Assembly (NCBI RefSeq): GCF_900107635.1
Contig: NZ_FNRD01000005.1
Coordinates: 124,001-188,000 of the forward strand
Direction of reading: 5' to 3'
Source: Flavobacterium gillisiae
GTDB taxonomy: Bacteria > Bacteroidota > Bacteroidia > Flavobacteriales > Flavobacteriaceae
Length of the DNA: 64,000 bases
Shown here: positions 963 through 60,885 of the stretch, one piece after another
Position numbering within the stretch: position 1 is the first letter of the stretch
Layout: the number at the start of each line of letters is the position of its first letter
Made by a program: the position numbers and the translations under genes
The notes under the pieces: model-generated
What the model saw: only the letters and a program-made list of their open reading frames with translations
Database searches by the model: none
What the model was told of the DNA's origin: nothing

Positions 963-1188
963 TTACGTTTTTTTTTAGAATTGCACACAAAATGTAGAGA
1001 GTCTTCGCATAATATCGCATAGACAAATAATATTATTTGGATAAAGGATTTACCTCAATTATCAAATATATACTTTTTTTACGATTATTCTGATAAAAAA
1101 TAACGCTCTGCATTGTTTTCAAATATACTTTCTTAATAGATAGTTTCTTTACGGAAAACCGTAAACGAGATTCATTTGCACTATCCTC

Positions 1189-1332
1189 TAGCCTCGATAG
1201 CAGTGAAAAGCCTTTATGGACTGAAACTACTTTTTTCTGGTTGTGGCAGTGCGACCAAAGGAAGCGCCTGCCACAACCTAGAAAAAGGGTTGAAGGTCAT
1301 AAAGCTTGAAACGAATAGCGAGAAAAGCTCCT
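1189..1332 (+). repeat. Dispersed structured intergenic element, copy 1 (long form)
   Basis: This is the first of four copies of an element with conserved flanks around a variable hairpin. The 5' flank reads TAGCCTCGATAGCAG and the 3' flank GAATAGCGAGAAAAGCTCCT. CTCG and CGAG can pair, as can AGC and GCT. The interior is longer than in the other copies. It holds one helix of AAGCCTTTATG with CATAAAGCTT, and inside it a long stem in which GGTTGTGGCAG pairs perfectly with CTGCCACAACC. It lies upstream of the drug exporter promoter at 1402. Confidence 0.6.
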
Positions 1333-12687: not shown

Positions 12688-13242
12688 CTAAAATAAATTT
12701 AATATAATTACATCTAGATCATTTTCTAAACTAGCATAATTTCTAGCTGAACTAAAATAATAATCTTCAGGTAATGTGACGATTTTTTCTTTGACAGGAT
12801 TATTGTGAATGTAATTTATCTTTTGCTTTATAAACCAGTTCGTTTCGACAATTTCGGCATGATACCCATCTTGCCAAACTTTATATTCTTGTTCTCGTTT
12901 GAGATGAGCACATGCTTTTTGAAAATGTTTTAACATCCACTCTCTTCTACTCTCTGGCTCTTCGCTAATAGTTTGAATTATCTTCTTTGAAGTATATTTT
13001 TTGAAATCACGCATCACATCAGATAATATAAAACCATTTGTTGCTTTACATAACAAATGAATATGACTACTCATAATGCAATAAGCATAAATCTCTAAGC
13101 CCTTATTTTGCTGACAATGTTGTAATGCGTTTATGAGAACGTATTTTTGATTTAACCTCGTGAAAACATCTACCCAGCCCACTGTTGTTATAGTGATAAA
13201 ATAAGCTTCTTCTGTGGTTGTAGCTTTATATTTGGTTGACAT
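12688..13242 (-). CDS. REP-associated tyrosine transposase (RAYT, Y1 family)
   Basis: This 184-aa protein belongs to the IS200/IS605-like Y1 transposases. The HUH metal-binding motif is SSHIHLL (about residues 58-64) within AYCIMSSHIHLLCKA. The catalytic Tyr is in KQKINYIHNNPV (about residues 138-149). The WQDGYHAEIVE stretch is typical of the RAYT branch, whose members are domesticated single copies that process REP palindromes. Inverted REPs on both sides (12641-12678 and 13281-13304) support this. It appears complete. The insertion sits next to a truncated copy of a helicase end, so the element or its target has rearranged. Confidence 0.9.
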   Translation of the reverse strand: MSTKYKATTTEEAYFITITTVGWVDVFTRLNQKYVLINALQHCQQNKGLEIYAYCIMSSHIHLLCKATNGFILSDVMRDFKKYTSKKIIQTISEEPESRREWMLKHFQKACAHLKREQEYKVWQDGYHAEIVETNWFIKQKINYIHNNPVKEKIVTLPEDYYFSSARNYASLENDLDVIILNLF

Positions 13243-16457: not shown

Positions 16458-16509
16458 TTTTTTGGATTTATTATTTTATAAAAAATAGTTATTTTGTATG
16501 CTGGATTTC

Positions 16510-16586
16510 TAGCCCTGATGGAAACGGCATCCTGTTGTGGTGGTGTTCACCACAACAGATACAGTGTACAGCAGGAAAAGCTCCTT
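16510..16586 (+). repeat. Dispersed structured intergenic element, copy 2
   Basis: The 5' flank is TAGCCCTGATGGAAACGGCATCC. The hairpin is TGTTGTGGTG with CACCACAACA. The 3' flank is GATACAGTGTACAGCAGG followed by AAAAGCTCCTT. CCTG pairs with CAGG and AGC with GCT. It lies between two helicase genes that run on the opposite strand and ends just before the second one's stop codon. Confidence 0.7.
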
Positions 16587-16589
16587 ATA

Positions 16590-18134
16590 TTATTCATCAT
16601 CAGGTTCGTTCATGATTTTCTCACGATACTTCTTCCCGATCATTAATGTCATTTTTAATTTGTAATCATCAACTAACCATTCGCGGTAGTTTTTACTACA
16701 CTGGCTCAAACACTTAGAATAGCGTTTGATACGGCAGTCAATGTCATCGTCCAATTCGCGGGACAATGATTTTGCTTCCTGTAATGTCTCCGTATTATCT
16801 ACACACATCGAAGAATGTTGCTCTAACGACTTGTCTAAAACTACTTTTGAACGCAGGTTTTGGGCAATGATGAGTTTGTGTTCTTCATCGACATCAAAAC
16901 TTACTTCGGCCGTTTTACTAAATTTAGCACGCAATTCTGGCGGCATAGAGTACTTGAAATACAATTCTATCTCCGTGTCATCACGTAAATTTTCTAGATA
17001 AAACTCTGGCGATTTAAAGATATGTTGCCAGTTTACAGGCTCACTCCACAAACCGAAACGGGCTGCATTATTTCCTAAATCGATTACCGTAAACATATCC
17101 TTGTTAGGCAGTTTTCTCGATCCACGACCAATCATTTGGTAGTATAATGTCAATGATTTTGTTGCTCTATTCAGAATGATAGTTTCCACGGTAGGCTCAT
17201 CAAAACCAGTGGTCAGGATCCCAACCGAAGTCAAAATCGCATCTGGTGTTTTCTTGAACCACTGTAGAATATCTTTACGTTCCTCAGCGCTACTAGTATT
17301 GTCTAGATGGCGGATAGGGTAACCGGCTTCTCTAAACGTTTCATAAACGTATAAAGAGGTATTAATTCCGTTATTGAAAATCAGCGTCTTTTTACCTAAT
17401 GATTTCTCTGTATAAGCATGCAATAATTTCTCCTGCATCGCCATATTAGTATACAAATCATCAGATGATTTCACGGTGTAATCTCCGTTAATTCCGACTT
17501 TCAACGACGTAAGACCTACATCATAACTATATGTAATTGCTTTTGCCAAGAAACCGTTTTCAATCAATGAATTAATGGTATCCCCTACGATTAATTCATC
17601 GTAGCTTTCGTGCATTGGCAGTTTTATATTTGAACTCAAAGGGGTTGCTGTAACTCCTAAAATAAAAGCATTTGTAAACGAACTCAATAATTTTCTAAAT
17701 GAGTTGTAATGCGCCTCATCGATGATTACCAGTCCTACATTATCTAAATGTAGTTTCTCATCATTGATACGGTTTTTCAGCGTTTCTACCATCGCCACAA
17801 AACAAGAATATTCGTTTTGGTCTGGAAGGTCTTTTACCTTACTGTTGATAATTTTGTTTTTTACGCCAAAACCTTTCAACATCTTAGAAGTTTGTTTACA
17901 CAACTCAATTCTGTGTGTTAAAACAACTACTTTATTGTCACTTTTAGATAAATAGCGACGAACGATTTCAGAGAACACAACCGTTTTACCACCACCGGTA
18001 GGCAGTTGATACAACAGGTGATGTTGCTTTGGTGCATTGTCTATCCGTTCAAAAATGGAATCAATATCTCCTTTTTGGTATCCATAGAGTTCTTTTCTGT
18101 CTTCTTTTTCTATTTCTATAGTATTTTCAAACAT
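16590..18134 (-). CDS. Superfamily 2 DEAD/DEAH helicase (UvrB/ResIII type)
   Basis: This 514-aa protein has motif I LPTGGGKTVV (44-53), motif II DEAH (139-142), motif III TATP (162-165) and a second RecA domain with TSVGILTTGFDEP and motif VI QMIGRGSRK. It matches the type III restriction/UvrB-like (ResIII plus Helicase_C) group of DNA translocases. The C-terminal 130 residues, rich in charged residues and Cys, are not recognised. No nuclease or methylase is nearby, so a housekeeping DNA-repair role is as likely as defence. A promoter box at 18155-18162 fits the ATG at 18134. Confidence 0.85.
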   Translation of the reverse strand: MFENTIEIEKEDRKELYGYQKGDIDSIFERIDNAPKQHHLLYQLPTGGGKTVVFSEIVRRYLSKSDNKVVVLTHRIELCKQTSKMLKGFGVKNKIINSKVKDLPDQNEYSCFVAMVETLKNRINDEKLHLDNVGLVIIDEAHYNSFRKLLSSFTNAFILGVTATPLSSNIKLPMHESYDELIVGDTINSLIENGFLAKAITYSYDVGLTSLKVGINGDYTVKSSDDLYTNMAMQEKLLHAYTEKSLGKKTLIFNNGINTSLYVYETFREAGYPIRHLDNTSSAEERKDILQWFKKTPDAILTSVGILTTGFDEPTVETIILNRATKSLTLYYQMIGRGSRKLPNKDMFTVIDLGNNAARFGLWSEPVNWQHIFKSPEFYLENLRDDTEIELYFKYSMPPELRAKFSKTAEVSFDVDEEHKLIIAQNLRSKVVLDKSLEQHSSMCVDNTETLQEAKSLSRELDDDIDCRIKRYSKCLSQCSKNYREWLVDDYKLKMTLMIGKKYREKIMNEPDDE

Positions 18135-23309: not shown

Positions 23310-23331
23310 ATTTCTGAGGAACCAGAATGCC

Positions 23332-23434
23332 TTGCCCAGATAGAAGAGAAAATCCCATCTCGTTTATAAAACGAGATGGATTGTATCGAATAGCTGGACA
23401 CGAGCGAAGCGAACTGACGAAGTAAATTGCTCCT
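23332..23434 (+). repeat. Dispersed structured intergenic element, copy 3, within an operon
   Basis: The 5' flank is TTGCCCAGATAGAAGAGAAAATCC. The hairpin is CCATCTCGTTT, loop ATA, AAACGAGATGG. The 3' flank is GAATAGCTGG, then about 30 extra bases and TTGCTCCT. Here CCAG pairs with CTGG. It fills the gap between the ATP-grasp and COG2170 ligase genes. Confidence 0.65.
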
Positions 23435-58474: not shown

Positions 58475-59221
58475 CTAAGTAAGCATTCCTCCATCCACAT
58501 TCATAACTTGACCCGTAATATACGCGCTCAAATCTGATGCAAGAAAAAGACATGCATTAGCCACATCTTCAGTAGTACCGCCTCTTTTCAAAGGAATTCC
58601 GTCTCTCCAACCTTGAACCACATCATCATTCAATTTTGCAGTCATTTCAGTTTCAATAAATCCTGGTGCAATAGCATTGCAACGAATATTACGAGAACCT
58701 AATTCAAGAGCAACCGATTTTGTAAATCCAATAACACCTGCTTTTGAAGCGGCATAATTCGTTTGACCTGCATTACCCTTCACTCCCACTACACTACTCA
58801 TATTGATGATTGATCCAGCGCGTTTCTTCAAGAAAGTTCTTTGAATTGCTTTGGTCATATTGAAAACAGATTTCAAATTGACATCAATAACTTTATCAAA
58901 ATCTTCTTCAGACATACGCATTAAAAGGTTGTCCTTAGTGATTCCAGCATTATTGATTAAAATATCGACAGTTCCAAAATCAGCTAATACAGCATCAACC
59001 ATAGTTTGAGCTTCATTAAAATCAGCAGCATTAGATTGGTATCCTTTGGCTTTAATCCCAAGTGCATTCAATTCATTTTCCAGTGCTAAAGCGGATTCAA
59101 CAGATGAACTGTACGTAAACGCAACATTTGCTCCGTGTTTTGCAAAAACTTCTGCAATTCCTTTTCCTATTCCGCGACTTGCGCCTGTTATAATGGCTAC
59201 TTTTCCTTCTAGTAATTTCAT
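58475..59221 (-). CDS. fabG: 3-oxoacyl-[acyl-carrier-protein] reductase
   Basis: This 248-aa short-chain dehydrogenase reduces 3-oxoacyl-ACP with NADPH in fatty acid elongation. It shows AIITGASRGIGKGIAEVFA, NNAGITKDNLLMRM (the Asn and the loop typical of FabG), NMSSVVGVKGNAGQTNYAASKAGVIGF with catalytic Ser, Tyr and Lys, and CNAIAPGFIETEMT. All catalytic residues are present. One of the dispersed structured elements lies directly upstream (59249-59328). Confidence 0.95.
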   Translation of the reverse strand: MKLLEGKVAIITGASRGIGKGIAEVFAKHGANVAFTYSSSVESALALENELNALGIKAKGYQSNAADFNEAQTMVDAVLADFGTVDILINNAGITKDNLLMRMSEEDFDKVIDVNLKSVFNMTKAIQRTFLKKRAGSIINMSSVVGVKGNAGQTNYAASKAGVIGFTKSVALELGSRNIRCNAIAPGFIETEMTAKLNDDVVQGWRDGIPLKRGGTTEDVANACLFLASDLSAYITGQVMNVDGGMLT

Positions 59222-59248: not shown

Positions 59249-59328
59249 GAAGCTATTCCTGCTATTCACTACAATCTTTTATGTTTTTAAGAAAAAACAT
59301 AAAAGGATTTCCGTTGCTATCAGGGCTA
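59249..59328 (-). repeat. Dispersed structured intergenic element, copy 4
   Basis: On the minus strand the 5' flank is TAGCCCTGATAGCAACGG followed by AAATCC. The hairpin is CTTTTATGTTTTT with AAAACATAAAAG. The 3' flank is GATTGTAGTGAATAGCAGG followed by AATAGCTTC. CCTG pairs with CAGG and AGC with GCT. This copy is co-directional with fabG and ends 28 bases before its ATG, so it would be part of the fabG leader if transcribed. Confidence 0.75.
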
Positions 59329-59407
59329 AAAACGACTTGTCAAATATATAATAATTCCCTTCTTAAAAAAAATTTCAATTCTAATAAACGAGTACTAAAA
59401 CAAAACT

Positions 59408-60730
59408 TTATATTTTAAAAAATTTATTCACCCATTTATCCCAATGCGAACTATAAATGGCCAATAAAGTAAAACCCAATAAAAACAAATGGTACCAAGC
59501 GTTACTGATTAAGTCAAAAAAGTCCAATTTACCATTAGCAAAACTCAATATCAACAAAACCTGCGCTCCGTAAGGTAAAATTCCTTGTACAATACAAGAA
59601 AAGATATCTAAAATAGCAGCTGTCTTTTTAGGATTCAAATCATATTCGTCATTAATCTCCTTTGCAATAGGACCCGTAATTACAATAGACACCGTATTAT
59701 TGGCTATAGCCAAATTAGCAAAACCAACTAATGCTCCTATTCCTGCTTGTGCTGATTTTTTGCTTTTAATACGTCTTTTAATTTGGTGTAATAAATAATT
59801 AATTCCGCCCGCTTTTTCTACCATAGCAGCCAAACCACCTGTAAGCATCGATAATAAAAAGATATCAGTCATGCCCGTAAAACCTTCATATATCTTTTGG
59901 ATAAACTCCATAAAGCTAAAAGAACCTCCAATGTAGCCTATGATACCCGCTAAAAGCGTCCCGATAACTAAGGTAGAAAAAACATTGATTCCAATCAAAG
60001 CCAAAACAATTACTAATATATAAGGTATGATAGGAATCCATTCAAAACTAGCTCGTGGTAATTCCACTGTGACAATCTCTGAATTTAAACCTAAATAAAA
60101 GAATAATACTATGGTAATCAATGCTGCAGGAAGAGCGATAAATAAATTAATTTTGAACTTGTCTTTTAATTCGCAACCCAAAGATTGTGTTGCGGCAATA
60201 GTCGTGTCTGAAATCATAGAAAGGTTATCTCCAAACATAGATCCGCCCAATAAAGCGCCAGAAATAAGTGGCAAAGAGGCTCCGCTTTTATCTGCTAATG
60301 TCACTGCTATAGGTCCTAATGCAACAATTGCTCCCACAGAAGTTCCGGTCGCAGTTGATAAAAAACCTGCAATCAAAAAGATTCCTAACGGAAAATAAGC
60401 AACATCAATAGTACTGATTCCTAAATTAACAACAGCATCAACACCGCCCATTGCTTTACTAACCACCGCAAATGCTCCTGCGAGCAAATAAATTAAACAC
60501 ATGGTCATGATTTTACTTTCTCCACAACCTGCAATTAAGGTGGCTACTTTTTCATCTGTGGAAGACTTGAATAATAAAAATGCGGCTATGATTCCAACCA
60601 ATACGGCAACAGGAGAAGGAAACGCATAGAAATCATGCAATACAATTCCAGCACCTAAAAAAGTAAAAATAAAAACAAACAAAGGAATCAAAGCGTACGG
60701 ATTTCCTGTTTTTTTCGAAAAAATAGTCAT
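59408..60730 (-). CDS. NhaC-family antiporter, MetT-like
   Basis: This 440-aa inner-membrane protein has about 11-12 helices of the Na+/H+ antiporter NhaC superfamily (PF03553): ATGTSVGAIVALGPIAVTLADKSG, LLGGSMFGDNLSMISDTTIAATQSLGCELKDKF and AIANNTVSIVITGPIAKEI. MetT, a methionine transporter predicted from S-box regulation, belongs to this superfamily. A leader with a SAM-riboswitch-like core lies about 85 bases upstream (60815-60883), which favours methionine or a related substrate over simple Na+/H+ exchange. This is inference from context. Confidence 0.85.
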   Translation of the reverse strand: MTIFSKKTGNPYALIPLFVFIFTFLGAGIVLHDFYAFPSPVAVLVGIIAAFLLFKSSTDEKVATLIAGCGESKIMTMCLIYLLAGAFAVVSKAMGGVDAVVNLGISTIDVAYFPLGIFLIAGFLSTATGTSVGAIVALGPIAVTLADKSGASLPLISGALLGGSMFGDNLSMISDTTIAATQSLGCELKDKFKINLFIALPAALITIVLFFYLGLNSEIVTVELPRASFEWIPIIPYILVIVLALIGINVFSTLVIGTLLAGIIGYIGGSFSFMEFIQKIYEGFTGMTDIFLLSMLTGGLAAMVEKAGGINYLLHQIKRRIKSKKSAQAGIGALVGFANLAIANNTVSIVITGPIAKEINDEYDLNPKKTAAILDIFSCIVQGILPYGAQVLLILSFANGKLDFFDLISNAWYHLFLLGFTLLAIYSSHWDKWVNKFFKI

Positions 60731-60814
60731 AAAATTAATTTAAAAATGAATTAAATATGACGAAAAACAAAAGCTAAAAAATGAGAATGAAACAACATTT
60801 TTTCCAAAGGATTT

Positions 60815-60883
60815 GGCTTATCGTTTTAGCACCTTGCTCGTTGTTGCAGGTTGCTATCTCATAATGAGATTCGTGATAACGGC
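60815..60883 (-). promoter_or_regulatory. Candidate SAM-riboswitch-like leader
   Basis: Read on the minus strand: TTATC, ACGA, a 6-bp hairpin (ATCTCA/TGAGAT), then GCAACC, a helix CCTGC/GCAAGG, TGCTAA and GATAAG. GCAACC-CCtGC...GCaaGG-TGCTAA-GATAAG matches the J3/4, P4 and 3' P1 parts of the SAM-I class, and TTATC/GATAA would be P1. The kink-turn and internal-loop parts of P2/P3 (GGGAGGGA and GAAGCC) are absent, replaced by the short hairpin. It could be a reduced or decayed variant or another RNA. A promoter box is placed so that transcription would begin right at its 5' end. Confidence 0.45.
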
Positions 60884-60885
60884 TG

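Follow-up and report, generated by a model that had tools for sequence, protein, structure and literature searches.

Strand-specific folding, site occupancy and exchange of hairpin tips in the Flavo-1 elements of Flavobacterium gillisiae

Flavo-1 (RF01705) appears in Table 1 of a 2010 paper as a probable RNA of the Bacteroidetes that is not cis-regulatory (PMC2864571), and a 2022 review, which assigns it no function in the passage that names it, counts it with the most abundant families of small RNAs (PMC9029176). The Rfam type entry reads Gene; sRNA. In F. psychrophilum, the part of PMC9723704 that concerns Flavo-1 describes hits in either sense, many of them outside transcribed regions and with no clear strand, and several 5' transcribed regions that coincide with the family. 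Dispersed, intergenic sequences that form single-strand hairpins are also known as the REP elements of RAYT (TnpA_REP) transposases, in the features that PMC6006769 sets out; unlike these, Flavo-1 does not lie beside the RAYT-like ORFs that we examined and often occurs in genomes that lack a Y1 match. The likeness to the attC sites of integrons, as PMC2727003 describes them in part, would at most be an analogy, that of a folded hairpin that varies in sequence, is conserved in structure and is strand-specific. In contrast to attC sites, Flavo-1 occurs as single copies dispersed over contigs and not in cassette arrays.

Four window copies and the Flavo-1 family

The window analysed in this paper is a stretch of 64,000 nucleotides from F. 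gillisiae, and it carries four copies of Flavo-1, all of type A as defined below. Copy 1 is at 1186..1332 on the plus strand (Rfam match 1186-1329; blocks CTCG/CGAG; 57.6 bits), with a GCTCCT tail at 1327-1332. Copy 2 is at 16507..16585, plus strand (Rfam 16507-16582; CCTG/CAGG; 67.2 bits), copy 3 at 23329..23434, plus strand (Rfam 23329-23404; CCAG/CTGG; 62.1 bits; GCTCCT at 23429-23434), and copy 4 at 59251..59331 on the minus strand (CCTG/CAGG; 81.0 bits). All four passed the RF01705 gathering cut-off of 42 bits in cmscan, with E-values that ranged, over the 64 kb of the window, from 2.4e-16 to 6.7e-10, and none of 14 control genomes gave a Flavo-1 match; together these results exclude a chance origin. 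Membership of the four copies in Flavo-1 is secure.

A sequence-only reading had already placed the four copies correctly, with 5' ends within 3 bases of the Rfam placement, and the four-base blocks are those it had read, although it gave no strand for copy 4, which Rfam puts on the minus strand. It had described a dispersed family of structured elements with a selected fold and compensatory changes, and this description stands, the fold being selected on one strand; its statement that the family had no name was wrong, as all copies exceed the cut-off of Flavo-1, which is also in the 2010 table. The flank scheme it drew as common to the copies has departures: in copy 3 TTGCCC stands in place of TAGCCC and the GCTCCT tail is preceded by about 25 additional bases, copy 4 terminates in GCTTC and not GCTCCT, and a simple perfect hairpin does not describe copy 1, in which the tip is long and nested and 73 bases are unmodelled by Rfam.

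Copy 2 is antisense to both neighbouring ORFs, and its 3' end adjoins the stop of ORF 16590-18134 (-). Copy 3, with its tail extended ahead of GCTCCT, is sense with both neighbouring ORFs, and copy 4 is located in the 5' region of ORF 58475-59221 (-). Nine bases before copy 4 there is a promoter-like TATATTTG (59341..59348, minus strand), a match to TANNTTTG, which we take to be the Bacteroidetes -7 promoter motif. This TATATTTG is not typical of the family; it was kept in 29 of 29 copy-4 segments (window genome included), and copy 4 may therefore act in mRNA. A neighbour of copy 4, ORF 59408-60730 (-), lies downstream of a SAM-I/IV riboswitch (RF01725, 55.1 bits) at 60788-60884 (-).

The window genome gave 111 Flavo-1 match rows, which correspond to 110 places because one palindromic copy was matched on both strands. 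Of these places 99 were above the cut-off, so that the alternative raised earlier, decayed transposon flanks, is not borne out. Matches were present in at least 76 of 81 same-genus genomes, with up to 50 scored per genome (the five in which no match was found were G018, G020, G033, G058 and G076), and, with 15 candidates scored in each, in at least 44 of 296 genomes sampled across the phylum. A search of 398 genomes found G231 as the closest relative (91% at the query), with 114 match rows. Copies were mostly kilobases to tens of kilobases apart, over many contigs, and one of 107 window-genome copies lay mostly inside an ORF of more than 150 amino acids.

The sequences of 107 of the 110 places were typed by a motif rule. 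Type A comprised 85 copies (TAGCCCNGAT...AGCN'GG...GCTCC) and type B the other 22 (GCGTGAGGGAT...AGCCCGACC...GGTCACGCCC). Element ends were sharp, with information dropping to background outside TAGCCC on one side and outside GCTCC and its A-rich run on the other, in profiles of 76 and 72 of the 85 type A copies that were anchored on the end motifs and hence partly impose them. The core carries conserved internal loops that are not Watson-Crick paired, and beyond it is the exchangeable hairpin tip. Two versions of the internal loop swap as matched units (47 long/long, 42 short/short and 4 long/short in 107 copies, of which 14 were unclassified on one or both sides). A nested hairpin, GAGCGACCA.CGGAAGCTC, recurs in the tips of the window-genome elements C18:436621, C18:333433 and C29:180988, and a related form is present in copy 1 (1186-1329).

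Core, hairpin, Bacteroidetes host and many copies per genome are as in the Rfam family. The Rfam model differs in that its outer flanking bases are unpaired, whereas type B here adds an outer basal helix, GCGTG/CACGC, which covaries and encloses a small third stem. Variants of this helix were GCGTA/TACGC, GCGAG/CTCGC, GCATG/CATGC, GCGCA/TGCGC and GGGTG/CACCC, and its mean pairing score over 32 copies (19 from the window genome and 13 from G231, a few of them unpaired) was 8.72, compared with 7.80 for shuffled partners (maximum 8.34 of 500).

Core pairs and the strand that folds

A pair that had not been listed earlier, N-N' (GATNG/ANAGC), was Watson-Crick in 96 of 100 copies and occurred as all four pair types (AT 58, GC 21, TA 13, CG 4, other 4). 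The same 100 parsable copies of 107, with seven unparsed, gave GC 79, AT 16, GT 4 and AC 1 for the R-Y pair, and CG 49, TA 31, TG 19, CA 0 and AA 1 for the Y-R pair. A strand that tolerates G.T but not A.C is the strand that folds, and since G.T exceeded A.C by 24:2 over the three core pairs (sign test 1e-5, relatedness ignored), the Rfam strand is the folded strand. Core wobbles were 6:0 in G103, with 4 other mismatches (27 of 30 copies parsed), and 3:0 in G495, with 2 other mismatches (15 of 17 parsed). Across relatives at three window sites they were 18:0, with 2 other mismatches, in the 62 of 89 loci that passed a filter of 2.5 of 4 pairs, a filter that favours paired copies. RNA energies favoured the Rfam strand in 76 of 107 window-genome copies. 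G495 is a genome of another genus, in which 13 of 17 matches above cut-off (L349-L365) were judged by eye to be type B and carry GCGTTA, or a sequence close to it, at their 5' end, so that type B may be the more ancient or more widely distributed of the two architectures.

The covariation is strong and the Rfam strand is the one that folds. Covariation, the check that had been proposed earlier, held against permutation within single orthologous sites at copies 2 and 3: in the 22 of 30 loci that were parsed at the copy-2 site each of the four core pairs gave p of about 0.0005, and at the copy-3 site p ranged from 0.0005 to 0.04. At the copy-4 site p was 0.0005 for R-Y and 0.18 for Y-R, and the remaining two pairs were without informative variation.

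A generic count of wobbles, taken wherever a pair is flanked by Watson-Crick pairs, gave G.T 27 to A.C 32 over the whole arm and 7:20 in the core. This count runs against folding of the Rfam strand; we discounted it in favour of the column-specific count because the hairpin alignment from which it comes is ignorant of the internal loops. In the hairpin tips G.T stood at 20 to A.C 12 (p=0.22), a strand preference that is not significant, as expected if tips are made at the DNA level. As evidence of selection, compensatory change is sounder in the core pairs; in the tip it is weaker than the sequence-only reading had assumed, since template switching and the swapping of whole hairpins also yield perfect, changing tips.

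Orientation, site occupancy and tip exchange

By our own ORF calls, on which the sense and antisense assignments rest, 50 window-genome copies were antisense and 24 sense (p=0.003). The numbers were 33 and 18 for 80 copies in G231, and 18 and 2 for the 30 best copies of G291; the antisense excess was not seen in the 30 best copies of G103 (7 antisense, 11 sense). If Flavo-1 were an RNA read from neighbouring promoters, antisense copies should decay, and we saw no sign of decay: the median score of type A copies was 69.2 bits when antisense to both neighbours (n=36) and 68.6 when sense (n=21; Mann-Whitney p=0.97), and wobbles in the copies of types A and B antisense to both neighbours were G.T 7 to A.C 0. 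G291 had no replication-strand bias (p=0.54), and that of G103 was modest (best split p=0.013, uncorrected).

In the 150 bases upstream of elements TANNTTTG was not enriched (19 found, 14.6 expected), and the type A profile, at background just outside the element, revealed no common promoter motif upstream of TAGCCC. A small RNA driven by a promoter of this type was rejected on these two results. The motif was in excess between elements and genes, both downstream of sense copies (27 against 9.4 expected) and upstream of antisense copies (22 against 9.2), from which it follows that many elements are outside the transcripts of the genes they precede. An intrinsic terminator was also rejected, by eye, as no T run comes directly after the tip, where instead the GAT..AGC core and then an A-rich tail are found.

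All four window copies have a same-site counterpart in G231; that of copy 1, identified by alignment, reads CTTG/CGAG (a G.T wobble) and is absent from the Rfam rows of G231. The same flanks held a window-genome element for 60 of 80 G231 elements and for 12 of 30 G291 elements examined, a few of the flanks being repeats. Under a lenient rule 59 of 60 window-genome sites were occupied in G231 and 18 of 20 in G291, and 13 of 16 G291 sites in G231, counts that used DNA around the relatives' own elements and so overstate site stability. In evenly spaced regions of G291 both of the unique window-genome sites (2/2) were empty, three other rows sharing a repeated flank, and turnover is therefore real.

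Among the 30 best orthologous loci (window genome included), which were chosen by BLAST score and are biased towards occupied sites, 26 reached the Rfam cut-off at the copy-2 site and 18 at the copy-3 site. Twenty further loci were chosen for split or short matches and 18 were resolved by eye: the element was missing in 7 of 9 at the copy-2 site and in 8 of 9 at the copy-3 site, where one had apparently decayed, and split-match loci such as that of G010 were mostly empty. The intergenic segment of copy 4 was recovered in 28 of 29 relatives. At this site 24 of 29 loci (window genome included) retain 2.5 or more of the 4 core pairs, 23 different inner sequences occur among them, and the element appears by eye to be decayed in G019 and G291. 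None of the compared sites in relatives was cleanly empty and bore a target duplication.

For comparison of tips between the window genome and G231, 39 of 49 parsed site pairs were kept after doubtful parses and repeated flanks (12 element numbers) were dropped. Tips were identical in 10 of these 39 cleanly parsed pairs. There were 11 double changes from one Watson-Crick pair to another (N 2, RY 4, YR 3, basal 2), and one-sided changes involved G.T eight times, A.C never and other mismatches twice. At several sites, such as copy 2 (element 44) and elements 5 and 9, multiple core positions and the tip changed together, which looks like block replacement, and some tip motifs recur between sites. 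Core identity to G231 was 93-94%, against 94% for the downstream flank, and the first block alone stood out (97%), in a comparison from which eight pairs were omitted because their flanks were doubtful or repeated.

Three sites have an arm that is the complement of its partner: in G231 these are copy 4, in the 5' arm, and element 11, in the 3' arm, and in the window genome it is element 86. Such rewritten arms are a signature of template switching, a mutation known at imperfect palindromes in E. coli from the part of PMC7202029 that deals with it. Here template switching destroys the core loops, and its rarity among the copies suggests that these loops are important. Similar insertions, ACTTCAC...TTTTATTTTAAT..GTTCAGTGAA, are found inside Flavo-1 at the copy-4 site of G019 (L041) and the copy-2 site of G215 (L336); they are perhaps another small mobile sequence that targets Flavo-1. 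In the literature searched, neither the exchange of tips nor palindromised copies nor the outer helix of type B is described; the 2010 supplement may say more.

DNA element, RNA family or inert insertion

The likeliest reading, to which we give about even chances, is that Flavo-1 is an extragenic DNA element that folds as a single strand. The Rfam strand folds, fold scores are similar in the two orientations relative to genes and many copies recur at orthologous sites; with the site unchanged, inner modules and tips are replaced, and an arm is sometimes rewritten as the complement of the other arm, as in template switching on DNA hairpins. The element would consist of sharp ends (TAGCCC...GCTCC), a basal helix, the core with its internal loops and an exchangeable tip. 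The selected molecule would be single-stranded DNA, such as a processed strand or the template of the lagging strand, and a putative protein would recognise it through the core. The spread of modules among copies already in place, by conversion or exchange, would be more frequent than the arrival of copies at new sites. Against a DNA element, G.T wobble and conserved internal loops suit RNA equally, the replication-strand bias that single-stranded DNA might show is absent in G291 and modest in G103, the antisense excess holds in the organism's own clade and fails in the 30 best copies of G103, and core identity to G231 is no higher than that of the downstream flank. No mobilising or binding protein for Flavo-1 was found, and this result, the generic wobble count and the lack of cleanly empty sites with a target duplication also tell against a DNA element. 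A bolder form of the DNA reading takes the elements as folded single-stranded DNA sites throughout the genome that hold their places and exchange inner hairpin modules, and not as an RNA gene family; we advance it tentatively, with somewhat more doubt than belief. Exchange would be carried out by a recognising enzyme or by hairpin-guided template switching, and Flavo-1 would then be a new kind of DNA element that evolves in concert.

A true RNA family, of small RNAs or UTR modules in which the core binds a protein and the variable hairpins serve as insulation or address labels, is in our judgement rather unlikely. Covariation with G.U tolerance and the matched swapping of internal loops look like RNA motifs, and both the promoter-like motif before copy 4 and the coincidence of several 5' transcribed regions with Flavo-1 in F. 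psychrophilum (PMC9723704, in the part cited above) favour RNA and tell against DNA. The upstream promoter motif is not shared by the family, however, antisense copies fold equally well, and the published hits are in either sense and often outside transcribed regions. It is improbable that the copies are inert old insertions without function, whose perfect hairpins are kept solely by template switching and conversion. Palindromised copies, the tip wobbles without significant strand preference, tip motifs shared between some sites and sites empty or decayed in relatives would fit such insertions, but template switching would erase the core loops, and these are kept, with strand-specific wobbles, while 99 of 110 places exceed the cut-off.

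Least probable, and in our view very improbable, is the spread of Flavo-1 as single-stranded DNA in the role of cognate REP for a RAYT (TnpA_REP) or other Y1 HUH transposase. An imperfect hairpin that is single-strand-specific, dispersed and intergenic is what such a REP would look like, and the window has a RAYT-like Y1 transposase gene at 12688-13242 (-) (PF01797 3.9e-11, SHIH and YIHNNP motifs), although the palindrome beside it, GCGCGGATT..AATCCGCGC, is other than Flavo-1. In 14 of 81 same-genus genomes, some of them incomplete, at least 33 Flavo-1 matches were found and a PF01797 match was absent. Flavo-1 was above cut-off in only 4 of 20 Y1 regions, each time about 1 kb or more from the ORF, and in none of the 20 within about 1 kb of a RAYT-like ORF. 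By a motif scan, 18 of the 20 regions contained RAYT-like ORFs, 22 in all; 18 of these ORFs had palindromes other than Flavo-1 on both sides (by eye), the other four being judged by the 3' flank only, and across the genus several different palindromes flank such ORFs. Flavo-1-rich genomes without PF01797 and the lack of Flavo-1 beside RAYT-like ORFs make a RAYT or Y1 enzyme an unlikely mobiliser, and RAYT transposases are probably not the mobiliser. One region (L253; G077:C19:49500-58000) contains three consecutive RAYT-like ORFs of the same strand, and palindromes occur in their flanks.

Should DNA prove to be the selected molecule, a large family annotated as RNA would be misfiled, and the inference that compensatory change means RNA would need a control at the DNA level. 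The count of G.T against A.C, the comparison of sense with antisense copies and the record of tip swaps are cheap tests that may be applied to other multicopy "RNA" motifs.
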